A DNA stretch of 64,000 nucleotides from Collimonas sp. OK607. GTDB lineage: Bacteria > Pseudomonadota > Gammaproteobacteria > Burkholderiales > Burkholderiaceae_D. Under the pieces are notes generated by a model that was not told where the DNA came from, did no database searches, and was given only the letters and a program-made list of their open reading frames with translations. The position numbers were made by a program, and so were the translations under genes. Of this stretch, positions 27,784 to 50,389 are shown piece by piece (the stretch's first letter is position 1; each line of letters begins with the position of its first letter). The stretch lies in assembly GCF_900111995.1 (NCBI RefSeq), contig NZ_FOKF01000001.1, forward strand, positions 62,001 to 126,000, read 5' to 3'.

Positions 27784-28833
27784 TTAAGGAGCGGGGTTAG
27801 GCTGGCGCGAGTGGATCAGCTCAATCTCGCGCAGGATATCTTCGCTCAGCGTCAGGTTGATGCTGTCGAGATTGCTCTGCAATTGCTTTAACGTAGTGGC
27901 GCCAACGATATTGCTAGTCACGAAACCGCGGCTGTTGACGAAAGCCAGCGCCATTTGCGCCGGATCCAGTCCGTGTTTTTGCGCCAGCGCTACATAATCG
28001 CCGATGACCCGGTCGACTTGCGGATTGGTATAGCGGCTGAAACGTTCAAACAAGGTAAGGCGGCTATCAGCCGGTCGCGCGCCATTCAGATATTTCCCCG
28101 ACAGCACGCCAAACGCCAGCGGTGAATAAGCCAGCAATCCGACCTGCTCACGGAAAGCAAATTCCGAATGGCCGATTTCAAACGTGCGGTTGAGCAGGCT
28201 GTACGGATTCTGGATGCTGACCACGCGCGGCAAATCAAACTTTTCCGAAGCCTTGAGAAACTGCGCAATACCCCACGGCGTTTCGTTCGAAATGCCGATA
28301 TGGCGCACCTTGCCAGCCTTGATGAAGTCCGCCAGGATGGTCAGCGTTTCTTCAATCGGCACCGTATCTTCATCTGCAATATGGCTGTAATTCTGGGTGC
28401 CGAAGCAATTCACGCTACGATCCGGCCAATGCAACTGGTAGAGATCGACGTAATCCGTCTGCAACCGTTCCAGGCTGCCGTTCAACGCCTCGGTCAAGCC
28501 TTTGCGATCAAAATTATTGACGCCGCCGCGTATGTGGCGCGGGTTGTGCGGCTTGCGCGCCGGTCCGGTAGCCTTGGTGGCGATCATTACATCGCGACGC
28601 TTGCCGGATTTTTTCAGCCAGCTGCCGACATAACGTTCGGTCGAGCCTTGGGTCTCGGGGCGCGGCGGCACCGGGTACATTTCCGCGGTGTCGATCAGGT
28701 TGACGCCGTGCGCCAGCGCCAGGTCGATTTGCGCATGCGCTTCTGCTTCGGTATTTTGTTCGCCCCAGGTCATGGTGCCGAGCGTAATCTGGCTAACCTT
28801 GAGATTGCTTTGTCCGAGTTCACGATATTGCAT
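27784..28833 (-). CDS. tas: Tas-like NADP(H)-dependent aldo/keto reductase
   Basis: 349 aa. Very close in motif to E. coli Tas: MQYRELGQSNLKVSQITLGTMTWGEQN, INLIDTAEMYPVPPRPETQGSTE (Asp and Tyr of the catalytic tetrad), IATKATGP (Lys) and DLYQLHWPDR (His). The GISNETPWG and C-terminal ATTLKQLQSNL also fit. Tas reduces carbonyl substrates and was found as a suppressor of tyrosine starvation. Distinct from the four reductases of the 42-49 kb cluster. No operon partner. Confidence 0.85.
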   Translation of the reverse strand: MQYRELGQSNLKVSQITLGTMTWGEQNTEAEAHAQIDLALAHGVNLIDTAEMYPVPPRPETQGSTERYVGSWLKKSGKRRDVMIATKATGPARKPHNPRHIRGGVNNFDRKGLTEALNGSLERLQTDYVDLYQLHWPDRSVNCFGTQNYSHIADEDTVPIEETLTILADFIKAGKVRHIGISNETPWGIAQFLKASEKFDLPRVVSIQNPYSLLNRTFEIGHSEFAFREQVGLLAYSPLAFGVLSGKYLNGARPADSRLTLFERFSRYTNPQVDRVIGDYVALAQKHGLDPAQMALAFVNSRGFVTSNIVGATTLKQLQSNLDSINLTLSEDILREIELIHSRQPNPAP

Positions 28834-41002: not shown

Positions 41003-41896
<894 letters not shown>

Positions 41897-41897
41897 T

Positions 41898-41946
41898 CAT
41901 GAGTCCAATTCATAAGCTCATGCCGATTATAGGCTCTAATCAAATA
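41898..41946. promoter_or_regulatory. LysR operator 1 (divergent spacer)
   Basis: CGATTATA, GGCTC, TAATCAAATA at 41924-41946 contains the 17-bp dyad GATTA-N7-TAATC (41925-41941) with the LysR T-N11-A pattern. The same block, with another centre, recurs at 46868-46890. A second dyad, CATGAG / CTCATG (41898-41922), lies next to the regulator start and may be the autoregulatory half. The box is about 105 bases ahead of the reductase ATG. Confidence 0.65.
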
Positions 41947-42031: not shown

Positions 42032-44431
<2,400 letters not shown>

Positions 44432-44522: not shown

Positions 44523-44945
44523 ATGGAAATGGAATTAAAACGAAGCGGCACGCAACCTTCCAGCAAAGGGCCGGCAGAGTACTTCACCGGCGATGTACGC
44601 ATTGACCCTCTCTTTAACTTGCCTGAACCCGCGCGGATGATGGGCGCCAACGTAACGTTTGAACCTGGCGCCAGAACCGCCTGGCATACCCATCCATTGG
44701 GTCAAGTCTTGATCGTCACGGCCGGATGCGGATGGACACAATGCTTCGGCGGTCCAATCAAGGTGATCAGGCCGGGCGACGTGATCTGGTGTCCGCCCGG
44801 CCACAAGCATTGGCACGGTGCTACCAAGAATACTGCCATGACGCATATCGCCATTGTCGAACAGCTAAACGGTAAGGGCGTTGAATGGATGGAAAAGGTT
44901 AGCGACGAACAATATCTGGCAGGCACCGATTCCCAATCCAGTTAA
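44523..44945 (+). CDS. Cupin of the (R)-hydroxynitrile lyase type
   Basis: 140 aa from the ATG at 44523 (GGAG about 8 bases upstream); the longer frame start is rejected. The single cupin domain closely resembles Granulicella tundricola HNL (GtHNL): [63 protein letters not shown] and AMTHIAI. Metal ligands correspond to His55, His57, Gln61 and His96 here (His53, His55, Gln59, His94 in GtHNL). At the position of GtHNL Gln110 this protein has Val. These Mn-cupins can cleave or form (R)-cyanohydrins, but their natural substrate is unknown. Lies between the NTF2-like and SDR genes. Confidence 0.8.
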
Positions 44946-44997: not shown

Positions 44998-45825
44998 GTG
45001 AAAGACGTCATAGTAGTTATTGGATCGGGATCGATCGGTCAAGCAATCGCTCGTCGTGTCAGCGCGGGAAAGCACGTTGTCTTGGCCGACTTGCGCGAGG
45101 AGAACGCCAACACAGCTGCGAAAATCTTGACCGACGCCGGATTCGAGGTCAGCACAACTGTCGTGGATGTCTCATCGCGTGCGTCGGTCCATGCTCTTGT
45201 TGAGAAGGCGACGTCCCTTGGTACTGTCACTGGCTTAATCCATGCTGCGGGCGTTTCGCCAACCCAGGCGCCACCCGCCACTATCCTGACGGTCGACCTA
45301 TACGGCACAGCGTTGGTGCTCGAAGAATTTGGCAACGTGATCACTCAAGGGGGAGCGGGCGTGGTGATCGCGTCGCAGTCTGGACACCGTCTTGCTGCGT
45401 TGTCCCCAGAGCAGAACAAGGCATTGGCAATTACACCGGCTGACGAACTGCTTGCATTGCCGATGCTTCAGCCAGACAAAGTGACCGACCCGCTCCTTGC
45501 ATATCAAATTTCCAAGCGAGGGAATTCGCTGCGCGTCATGGCCGAGGCGGTGCGTTGGGGCAAGCGCGGTGCACGGGTCAATACAATTAGCCCTGGCATC
45601 ATTATTACACCTCTCGCCAACGACGAATTGTCCGGCCCACGCGGCGCAGGATACCGGCGCATGATCGATCTGTGCCCGTCAGGGCGTGCCGGAACTCCTG
45701 ATGAGGTGGGAAACGTTGGCGCACTGCTTATGGGGCAGGACGGGGCGTTTATCACCGGCAGCGACTTCCTTATGGATGGTGGAGTCACAGCCGCATACTG
45801 GTACGGTGACCTTGCACCGTCGTAA
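44998..45825 (+). CDS. Short-chain dehydrogenase/reductase
   Basis: 275 aa with a GTG start at 44998, which has AAGGAGC 6 bases upstream; the frame runs further 5' through the cupin gene and is not used. The cofactor motif is GSGSIGQAI in place of the usual TGxxxGIG, then HAAGVSP (NNAG-like), Ser in SQSGHR, and YQISKRG as YxxxK. The C-terminus has GSDFLMDGG, typical of SDRs. A long insertion (ALSPEQNKALAITPADELLALP) precedes the active site. It closes the plus-strand operon begun at 42047. Confidence 0.86.
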   Translation: MKDVIVVIGSGSIGQAIARRVSAGKHVVLADLREENANTAAKILTDAGFEVSTTVVDVSSRASVHALVEKATSLGTVTGLIHAAGVSPTQAPPATILTVDLYGTALVLEEFGNVITQGGAGVVIASQSGHRLAALSPEQNKALAITPADELLALPMLQPDKVTDPLLAYQISKRGNSLRVMAEAVRWGKRGARVNTISPGIIITPLANDELSGPRGAGYRRMIDLCPSGRAGTPDEVGNVGALLMGQDGAFITGSDFLMDGGVTAAYWYGDLAPS

Positions 45826-45946: not shown

Positions 45947-46837
45947 TCACTTGCGGTATCGAAAAGCGTCCACAATCAATTCAAATGCCATGGACGGCTG
46001 CCGACGACTCGGATAATAAAGGTGGTAACCCGGGAAAGGATTGCACCAGTCTTCGAGCACGCGGATGAGTCGCCCCTCGGCAATATGCGGTTGCACTACC
46101 TCCTCCAGAGCAAAGGCTAAACCCATGCCAGCCAGTGTGGCGTTGAGGATTTGATGGAAGCCGTTCAAGATCAGTGTTCCTTCGACGCGGACTTTCAGCT
46201 CGTGTTTACCTTTCTTGAAGTCCCACGGAAGCCGGCCGCCGAGGGTGGGCAGACGCACATTGATACAGTCATGATCCGTCAAGTCCTGCGGTTTCTTTGG
46301 CCTCGGACGAGCGGCGAAATAAGCAGGCGCGCCGACGACCGCCATCCGCACATCCGGCCCGATACGTACCGCGATCATGTCCTTGGCAATATATTCGCCG
46401 AGTCTTACGCCGGCGTCGAAACGCTGTTCGACGATGTCGATCATCCGATAGTCGGTATTGATTTCGACCTTGATGTCGGGAAAGTCCGGCAGCAACTTCA
46501 TCAGCTTCGGCATCAAAATCGAATCCGCGGCATGCTCGGAAGCTGTGATCCGTATGTTGCCAGCTGGTTTTTCCCTCAGTTCGCTCAGCGCTGCGAGATC
46601 CGTCTCGATTCCTTCGAGCCGTGGCCCTACGGTGGCAAGCAGGCGTTCACCTGCATCGGTCGGCGCTACGCGCCGGGTTGTACGCGAGAACAAACGCAGG
46701 CGAAGTCGCTCCTCCAGCCCACGAATTGTCTGGCTCAGCGCCGATTGAGACACACCTAGTTTCGCCGCGGCGCGTGTAAAGCTGCCCTCGCGCGCCACCA
46801 TTACGAAAGCAGTCAGGTCATTAAGGTTCTCTCTCAT
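45947..46837 (-). CDS. LysR family regulator 2 of the aldo/keto reductase cluster
   Basis: 296 aa. Same architecture as the regulator at 41003 and clearly its paralogue: [58 protein letters not shown], and the last NPFPGYHLYYPSRRQPSMAFELIVDAFRYRK (in parts). It is divergent from the reductase at 47022. Its spacer contains the same operator block. It could bind the same sites as regulator 1, so cross-regulation is likely. Confidence 0.92.
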   Translation of the reverse strand: MRENLNDLTAFVMVAREGSFTRAAAKLGVSQSALSQTIRGLEERLRLRLFSRTTRRVAPTDAGERLLATVGPRLEGIETDLAALSELREKPAGNIRITASEHAADSILMPKLMKLLPDFPDIKVEINTDYRMIDIVEQRFDAGVRLGEYIAKDMIAVRIGPDVRMAVVGAPAYFAARPRPKKPQDLTDHDCINVRLPTLGGRLPWDFKKGKHELKVRVEGTLILNGFHQILNATLAGMGLAFALEEVVQPHIAEGRLIRVLEDWCNPFPGYHLYYPSRRQPSMAFELIVDAFRYRK

Positions 46838-46842
46838 GATTA

Positions 46843-46890
46843 ATTAGGTGCGCTAATAATGACATGTCGATTATACCGGCTAATCAAATA
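46843..46890. promoter_or_regulatory. LysR operator 2 (divergent spacer)
   Basis: CGATTATA, CCGGC, TAATCAAATA at 46868-46890 matches operator 1 at 19 of 23 positions, including the dyad GATTA-N7-TAATC (46869-46885). A second dyad ATTAG, GTGCG, CTAAT (46843-46857) lies beside the regulator start. The box is about 137 bases ahead of reductase 3. Confidence 0.65.
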
Positions 46891-46967: not shown

Positions 46968-47873
<906 letters not shown>

Positions 47874-47887
47874 CGGGAAAAATAGAA

Positions 47888-49092
<1,205 letters not shown>

Positions 49093-49219: not shown

Positions 49220-50389
49220 CTATTTTTTTGATGCACCCTGGCTATCCAGTAGGGTGAGTATCTGATACGCAGCAGTCACTCTTTGATCGATCGGATAGGA
49301 TTTATTGGCCAGGATCACAATGCCGATTTTTTTAGATGGAATAAAGGCTGCATAGGTGGAAAAGCCGTTCGTCGAACCGGTTTTGTTGATCAGCACGTCC
49401 GCTTGAGGTGGCAACGGCGGGTTTAGCTTGTTTGCAACTGTCCCTTGATAGATAACACCGGGGTCGTTACCGGCCAGCAGTTGTTTCAACTCTACAGGAT
49501 AAGGGTATTGCTCCCATATCAAATCTTGCGTAAATTCGCCCGACCTGAAATATCCTGTGTGAGTGTCCGTGACCGCACGTTGAAGTTTTTCGCTAAGCCT
49601 GTTCCCCTGGATGTTATCGTCAATAAATCGGATCAAGTCCGCCGAGCCTGATTTCACGCCGTATGCTTCGGACGCCAGAATCCCGGGATTCACTCTGACT
49701 GGTACATCCTTTGCCGTGTAACCTTGCGCGTAATCCTTCATCTGGTCCGCTGGCACATTGATGTAGCTATGCGTCATGCCAAGCTCAGGGAATAACTTCT
49801 TTTCAAGCGCGTCCTCAAAAGACACGTTCATACTTTTGGCCGCAATCATGCCAAGCATTCCTATACTCAGATTGGAGTATTTCCTGTATGTGCCGGCTGC
49901 ATGAACAGGCTCCCAATGCTTGAAGTAAGCCATTAACTGATCGGTATTCTCTATATTGTCCGGCGCCTGCAGAGGAAGGCCGCCCGCAGTATGCGTGCCC
50001 AGATTCAGCAGGCTGATATTGTCAAAGCTACTGCCGCGCAAGGAAGGAAAATATTTTCCCGGGCTGTCAGAGAGTGAAAGATCTCCATTGACTTGAGCAT
50101 AAGACGCCAGCGTCGCCGTAAATGTTTTGCTGAGCGACCCGATCTCAAAAAGCGTCTTGTTGGTAATGCGTTGCTGTGTTTCTTTTGACGTTACACCATA
50201 GTTGTAGAAATAATTATGGCCATTGACGGTCACTGCGATTGCCATGCCGGGAATGCTGTACTTCTGTATCAGTGGCTGGATAGTTGCATCTACCGTATCG
50301 GTGATCCTGGATTGATCGACGGTGCCTGCCGCATAGCTACTTGCAGCGAGTAAATATACTGAGAAAGATAGTAGTTTTAGTGTGTTCAT
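49220..50389 (-). CDS. ampC: Class C beta-lactamase (AmpC family)
   Basis: 389 aa with a signal peptide (MNTLKLLSFSVYLLAASSYA). All three active-site elements are present: SLSK (Ser85, Lys88), YSN (Tyr171) and KTG (Lys336). Subtracting 21 residues gives Ser64, Tyr150 and Lys315, the canonical class C numbering. GIVILANKSYP near the C-terminus is also typical. It is a periplasmic cephalosporinase by family. No ampR lies beside it, so it is not controlled by the usual divergent LysR gene; LysR regulators of the neighbouring cluster are more than 2 kb away. The gene looks AT-richer than its neighbours. Confidence 0.93.
   Translation of the reverse strand: MNTLKLLSFSVYLLAASSYAAGTVDQSRITDTVDATIQPLIQKYSIPGMAIAVTVNGHNYFYNYGVTSKETQQRITNKTLFEIGSLSKTFTATLASYAQVNGDLSLSDSPGKYFPSLRGSSFDNISLLNLGTHTAGGLPLQAPDNIENTDQLMAYFKHWEPVHAAGTYRKYSNLSIGMLGMIAAKSMNVSFEDALEKKLFPELGMTHSYINVPADQMKDYAQGYTAKDVPVRVNPGILASEAYGVKSGSADLIRFIDDNIQGNRLSEKLQRAVTDTHTGYFRSGEFTQDLIWEQYPYPVELKQLLAGNDPGVIYQGTVANKLNPPLPPQADVLINKTGSTNGFSTYAAFIPSKKIGIVILANKSYPIDQRVTAAYQILTLLDSQGASKK

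Follow-up and report, generated by a model that had tools for sequence, protein, structure and literature searches.

The gene cluster

The window, by which we mean the whole 64-kb stretch of DNA analysed here, contains a gene for a cupin of 140 amino acids (Table 1). Within this open reading frame an alternative in-frame ATG at 44529 corresponds to the start position of GtHNL, the manganese-dependent (R)-hydroxynitrile lyase of Granulicella tundricola. The cupin gene is part of a cluster with two halves. In the first half the gene of the regulator LysR1 on the reverse strand is followed on the forward strand by AKR1, AKR2, a DUF4440 gene, the cupin gene and SDR, with intergenic distances of 31, -4, 91 and 52 bases between these five genes. 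In the second half LysR2, again on the reverse strand, precedes AKR3 and AKR4 on the forward strand. The cluster comprises four aldo-keto reductases (AKR), one short-chain dehydrogenase/reductase (SDR), two divergent LysR genes and two sequence boxes of identical spacing.

Table 1. Coordinates of the features of the cluster in the window.
Feature	Position	Strand	Evidence and remarks
LysR regulator 1, divergent from AKR1	41003..41896	-	best named model YafC, below cut-off (157.1 of 470)
Box GATTA-N7-TAATC, LysR1-AKR1 gap	41925..41941	.	motif search
Aldo-keto reductase AKR1, first of five genes in a row	42047..43027	+	PF00248, 252 bits
Aldo-keto reductase AKR2	43059..44048	+	PF00248, 265.7 bits; best PDB match perakine reductase (3uyi, E = 2.9e-81)
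DUF4440/SnoaL-like small protein, 4-base overlap with the end of AKR2	44045..44431	+	PF14534, 54.7 bits
GtHNL-family (MandnitrLy) cupin	44523..44945	+	ORF, phmmer, NCBIfam, alignment, AlphaFold2
Short-chain dehydrogenase/reductase (SDR), GTG start 52 bases past the cupin stop	44998..45825	+	NF005395, 452.9 bits (cut-off 280)
LysR regulator 2, divergent from AKR3	45947..46837	-	profile searches
Box GATTA-N7-TAATC, LysR2-AKR3 gap	46869..46885	.	motif search
Aldo-keto reductase AKR3, 2,5-diketogluconate-reductase-like	47022..47873	+	second-best PDB match 1vp5
Aldo-keto reductase AKR4, with N-terminal extension	47888..49045	+	PF00248, 223 bits

AKR2 and AKR4 were searched from one codon upstream of their ATG. 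The N-terminal extension of AKR4, in which two adjacent arginines go together with a hydrophobic stretch, by eye resembles a twin-arginine signal. The genome from which the window is taken has 12 AKR genes in 5.37 Mb, and four of the 12 are found at most 4 kb away from the cupin, against a Poisson expectation of 0.018 that treats tandem AKR genes as if they were independent, which they are not. A fifth AKR gene of the window (27820-28788, reverse strand; 89820-90788 on the contig) is found about 16 kb from the cupin. Neither an ADH nor a CMD gene is present in the window's own cluster, and the ten window genes scanned include no sugar-catabolic or uronate genes. Scans for sigma-70-like promoters and for terminators stayed at or below the chance level. 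Just beyond the cluster there is a gene for a class C beta-lactamase (49220-50389, reverse strand; NF033085, 558 bits, cut-off 415), which scores under the cut-offs of the listed named families, for example ACC.

A box shared by the two halves

In the 64-kb window there are two copies of the motif GATTA-N7-TAATC, compared with 0.01 copies expected from shuffled sequences. When the motif is extended by AAAT, exactly two copies are found in the 5.37 Mb of genome examined, and both are located in the LysR-AKR gaps. The motif with its AAAT extension is also present between a LysR gene and the cupin gene on an Agrobacterium plasmid (L169).

For a wider search we collected 44 LysR genes, either from the plasmid regions described below or no more than 8 kb away from such a cupin; 43 of them have sufficient upstream sequence. 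The exact core ATTA-N7-TAAT precedes six of the 43 genes, where random stretches taken from these loci would give 0.17; with up to one mismatch it precedes 14 (1.5 expected). The six genes with the exact box are the two of the window, one at L119 from the same genus, and those of L064, L131 and L169, so that half of them come from the window itself or from its genus. At L119 the ATTA-N7-TAAT box is present and the GATTA form is absent. The two halves of the cluster have one LysR-type box in common, a candidate regulator site.

Family, metal site and fold of the cupin

A phmmer search of the PDB with the cupin retrieves GtHNL (4bif) with E = 3.7e-62 over residues 3-131. It also retrieves two mutants of GtHNL, 8oz8 and 4uxa, and with a weaker score TM1010 (2f4p, E = 3.1e-28). 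The cupin shares 90 of 129 aligned residues with GtHNL and 51 of 124 with TM1010; over GtHNL and its variants the identity amounts to 68-70%. The NCBIfam equivalog model NF049940 (MandnitrLy, (R)-mandelonitrile lyase) gives 198.8 bits and thus exceeds its cut-off of 140. The metal ligands of GtHNL, residues 53, 55, 59 and 94, are all kept as His55, His57, Gln61 and His96, and these four positions are invariant in a 35-row alignment. His98 and His108, which correspond to GtHNL His96 and His106, are kept as well. Since the cupin passes the equivalog model and retains the ligands, the enzyme family is known. An AlphaFold2 model of the cupin (mean pLDDT 90.8) superimposes on the GtHNL variant H96A (8oz8) with Z = 23.8 and 1.1 Å over 131 residues. 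GtHNL is therefore the closest solved relative and not KdgF (5fpx, Z = 13.3). The cupin is probably a GtHNL-type mono-metal enzyme, with Mn2+ as the probable metal.

At the place of GtHNL Gln110 the cupin has Val112. An alignment of 118 rows, that is, 116 open reading frames from the loci plus GtHNL and TM1010, shows Q in 86 rows, T in 10, V in nine (the window's included), other residues in 10 and a gap in three. Among the 100 main cupins eight have Val at this site, and their neighbouring partners are of the same kinds as those of the rest. According to the part of the publication available to us, His at this site belongs to an engineered GtHNL triple mutant with good activity (PMC8097096). 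Because the Val cupins share their kinds of partners and His is found here in an active triple mutant, we reject the idea that Val marks a separate function or class.

These results agree with the first-pass annotation, which from the sequence had described a cupin much like the manganese (R)-hydroxynitrile lyases, with the four ligands kept and Val in place of Gln110, and had proposed a structure comparison with GtHNL; on the model, the overall fold matches.

Distribution of the family and plasmid-borne relatives

The distribution of the GtHNL-type cupin family is patchy. NF049940 scores above its cut-off in seven of 40 near relatives, in 13 of a class-wide sample of 369 genomes and in none of 14 named control genomes. 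A distant blastn search gave no cupin match in E. coli genomes; plasmid records named Escherichia do carry the family.

Among 72,556 plasmid records 276 have a relative of the cupin at E = 1e-20 or better. We inspected 12 plasmid regions of about 10-12 kb which were picked by hand, four from a list of best matches and eight from a list chosen for spread, two of the latter being already known to have a CMD gene under the match. In this hand-picked sample a CMD gene or a fusion annotated as CMD occurs in nine of the 12 regions, LysR in seven and AKR in five. The regions from Listeria and Deinococcus plasmids list no CMD, AKR or LysR, and the Hymenobacter region has an AKR together with xanthine-dehydrogenase-type genes. 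On pAt12D13a the row of genes consists of the aldehyde oxidoreductase genes paoA and paoC, LysR, cupin, tautomerase, a transporter, CMD and AKR. Cupin-CMD pairs are also seen on enterobacterial plasmids typed as conjugative, one from E. coli (L163, CP098976.1) and one from Klebsiella (L162, NZ_CP124695.1).

Neighbours of the cupin in other genomes

A scan of named genomes gave at least 594 related stretches, of which the best 80 were kept. Together with six relatives, 13 class members and the window they form a set of 100 loci. The comparison is confined to the 67 loci, from several phyla, which extend at least 4 kb to each side; the remaining 33 were excluded. As controls we used 20 other cupins of the window's own genome alone (22 cupin matches minus the window's own and minus one beside another). 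As a second reference we took a shell at 4-7.8 kb from the cupin, available for 55 test loci. CMD was told apart from the cupin by HMMs.

Table 2. Partner genes within 4 kb of the cupin (for the shell, at 4-7.8 kb), in a set of loci that includes the best 80 of at least 594 stretches; controls have at least 3 kb of flank against 4 kb for test loci, and CMD counts include cupin-CMD fusions.
Partner	Test loci	Controls	Shell
AKR	22/67	1/20	6/55
ADH	18/67	0/20	4/55
CMD	15/67	0/20	2/55
Tautomerase	8/67	0/20	1/55
AraC_N	18/67	6/20	5/55
SDR	14/67	4/20	7/55
LysR	14/67	7/20	14/55
Mo-oxidase	2/67	0/20	1/55
AKR, ADH, Mo-oxidase, CMD or tautomerase (class made post hoc)	42/67	1/20	9/55

AKR, ADH and CMD genes are enriched near the cupin relative to both the controls and the shell (Table 2), with uncorrected p values of 0.002 to 0.013 and with partner HMMs whose seeds were neighbours of the cupin, which possibly favours near hits. 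The count of AKR genes in the window's own genome (four of 12) is independent of these HMMs. AraC_N is enriched relative to the shell only, while SDR, LysR and Mo-oxidase genes show no enrichment in this set of best-matching and related loci. When the own genus is removed, the post hoc class of five partners is still found at 38 of 61 loci of the same set, with its best 80 of at least 594 stretches. Conversely 25 of the 67 loci of this set have none of the five kinds of partners within 4 kb, and the link between the cupin and its partners is hence not obligatory. We also tallied Pfam families for 90 of 126 unlabelled operon neighbours, the rest being mostly short or distant; no family among the 25 listed of 93 has more than three members.

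Five open reading frames (L131, L133, L134, L135 and L113) are cupin-CMD fusions with the CMD part downstream of the cupin part. The fusion at L113 ends at a contig edge. Some copies of cupin and CMD elsewhere start with a signal-peptide-like sequence, for example L042:8439-8933. The ADH beside the cupin of L130 has as its best model the NADPH-dependent aldehyde reductase Ahr, with a score below the cut-off (325 of 470).

The first-pass annotation had attached weight to a setting with four carbonyl reductases. The four AKRs are indeed present, and the number has to be raised as SDR adds a fifth carbonyl oxidoreductase gene. As the counts of neighbours and the plasmids show, the link between cupin and carbonyl oxidoreductases recurs in the family and is not an accident of the window.

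Cyanide and aldehydes

We searched the loci for genes of cyanide metabolism, that is, for nitrilases only, with an HMM whose seeds were 17 of the 20 frames retrieved; several of these 17 look antisense, which reduces the sensitivity of the search. A nitrilase-like open reading frame was found at one of the 100 test loci (which include the best 80 of at least 594), 3.9 kb off the cupin, compared with two of the 20 controls. All three genes match with E = 2.5e-62 or better. The window's own genome has six CN_hydrolase matches, none of them on the contig of the cupin. This search of nitrilase genes thus gives no support for a setting of the cupin in cyanide or nitrile metabolism, as nitrilases are not associated with it.

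A link to aldehydes is suggested by studies in Acinetobacter, which we cite from the parts available to us. In A. baumannii citral raises D0C711, a protein known as a cupin only, 5.5-fold, the CMD protein D0C712 4.3-fold and D0C713 up to 9.8-fold (PMC7677002). By our reading of this partial source D0C713 is an ADH-type "BchC" protein, and the consecutive accessions suggest that the three genes are neighbours. Among the 11 genes with a printed rise of more than 4-fold after treatment with an oil of about 68% citral are those of CMD and of an NAD(P)-dependent ADH, as well as the genes for a regulator of the AraC type and for an alpha/beta hydrolase; the available part of this study names no cupin among the most strongly raised genes (PMC8307839). 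A 16S probe for Acinetobacter had no match in a sample of 369 genomes, and a tie between the citral data and the GtHNL-type family is thus tentative. In the open-licence literature, outside of which most subscription journals lie, we found no description of this neighbourhood for hydroxynitrile lyase cupins.

Proposed role of the cupin

The enzyme family of the cupin is known and the informative part is its genomic setting. This setting among enzymes for aldehydes and ketones, which is seen in many other bacteria as well, suggests that the natural job concerns reactive aldehydes rather than cyanide. We consider it fairly likely that the cupin is a component of an inducible, regulated defence module against reactive carbonyls, above all aldehydes.

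We suggest that such a module could operate in the following steps. The signal would be an electrophilic aldehyde or one of its products, whose effect on the GATTA-N7-TAATC boxes would be mediated by LysR1 and LysR2. Both AKR operons would then be switched on and the AKRs and SDR would reduce the carbonyl. In the cupin the metal could serve as Lewis acid, with His98 and His108 in acid-base roles. The enzyme might then catalyse an enolisation, or else a reversible addition or elimination at the aldehyde carbon like that of GtHNL with cyanide or nitromethane. Adducts or alpha-functionalised aldehydes would thereby be turned into substrates for the reductases. If the cupin acts on aldehyde adducts, cyanide would be a stand-in nucleophile.

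The specific step of retro-addition is the doubtful part of this scheme. It would make the cupin a C-C lyase which by a retro-aldol or retro-addition reaction on a non-cyanide adduct frees an aldehyde for the AKRs, as the first-pass annotation had proposed. The metal site and the active-site histidines, both of the GtHNL type, and the recurrence of reductase neighbours argue for such a lyase, as does the promiscuous chemistry of GtHNL, which includes nitroaldol addition (PMC8097096, available in part). Yet the recurrent partners include CMD and tautomerase besides reductases, and enzymes acting in parallel on one toxic aldehyde fit the same neighbourhood: parallel detoxification yields the same map without any lyase step. 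On balance we regard a lyase of this kind as rather improbable. Tautomerase as a partner (8/67 in the set with the best 80 of at least 594 stretches, 1/55 in the shell, 0/20 in the controls) fits a metal-dependent enzyme with isomerase or tautomerase activity, or one which like KdgF handles sugar derivatives, with alpha-hydroxy or alpha-keto aldehydes as substrates, for example of the diketogluconate type. In structure the cupin has KdgF and sugar isomerases among its neighbours, and AKR3 resembles 2,5-diketogluconate reductases; however, the fold match to KdgF falls far below that to GtHNL, and none of the ten window genes scanned belongs to sugar catabolism. We regard this reading as unlikely.

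Could the cupin be a true hydroxynitrile lyase, which cleaves or forms cyanohydrins in vivo for cyanide detoxification or cyanogenesis while the reductases clear the aldehyde released? The close identity to GtHNL and the NF049940 score speak for it, and an aldehyde as one of the products would suit the adjoining reductases. Nitrilase-like genes, however, are seen at a single one of the 100 loci (with the best 80 of at least 594) and no CN_hydrolase gene lies on the cupin's contig; moreover, as far as the available part of the source tells, the GtHNL variant for which good activity is described carries three engineered mutations (PMC8097096). We judge a cyanohydrin role to be quite unlikely. 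Very unlikely as well is a Mn or Fe dioxygenase whose cleavage of alkenes or diketones would yield aldehydes or acids. TM1459 and the acetylacetone dioxygenases are fold neighbours, and TM1459 is described in the available part of PMC10947199 as a Mn cupin which cleaves alkenes; but the identity to these enzymes amounts to only 13-23%, and the close identity is to a non-oxidative enzyme.

The reading as part of a reactive-carbonyl defence module might be extended to the entire family of manganese-dependent "hydroxynitrile lyase" cupins, a generalisation we put forward tentatively and give somewhat less than an even chance. Their natural role would then be defence against reactive aldehydes by metal-catalysed addition/elimination or isomerisation, within a mobile module under LysR or AraC control with AKRs, an Ahr-like reductase, CMD and tautomerase, and with exported as well as cytosolic copies; the cyanide chemistry would be a side activity of the laboratory. 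The automatic family name "(R)-mandelonitrile lyase" may mislead. The recurrent neighbourhood and the shared box lead to a short list of substrates (aldehydes and adducts) and partners which can be tested.

Comparison with known systems

KdgF cupins share the small cupin fold with the window's cupin (Z about 13) and have the ligands HxH-Q-H. The fold match is much weaker than that to GtHNL, and the ten window genes scanned contain no uronate genes.

As to the regulation of the module, we know of no cupin or CMD in the YqhC-YqhD-DkgA response of E. coli. This response combines an aldehyde-responsive regulator with genes for an AKR and an aldehyde reductase, as described in the available part of PMC6115493, and its overall design is similar to that proposed here for the window. 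The regulator is of the AraC type in E. coli, whereas it is LysR in the window.

A second likeness is found in Thermotoga maritima. TM1010 (2f4p) has the cupin fold (Z = 21.7) and the identity given above, which is only 41%, and it has Ser at the Gln110 place. AKR3 is close to PDB 1vp5, which we take to be TM1009, encoded by the gene adjoining TM1010.

GtHNL (4bif, 4uxa, 8oz8) differs from the window's cupin in having Gln110 where the latter has Val. The two proteins are alike in their fold, in the majority of the aligned residues, in the four ligands and in the histidines 96 and 106 of GtHNL.
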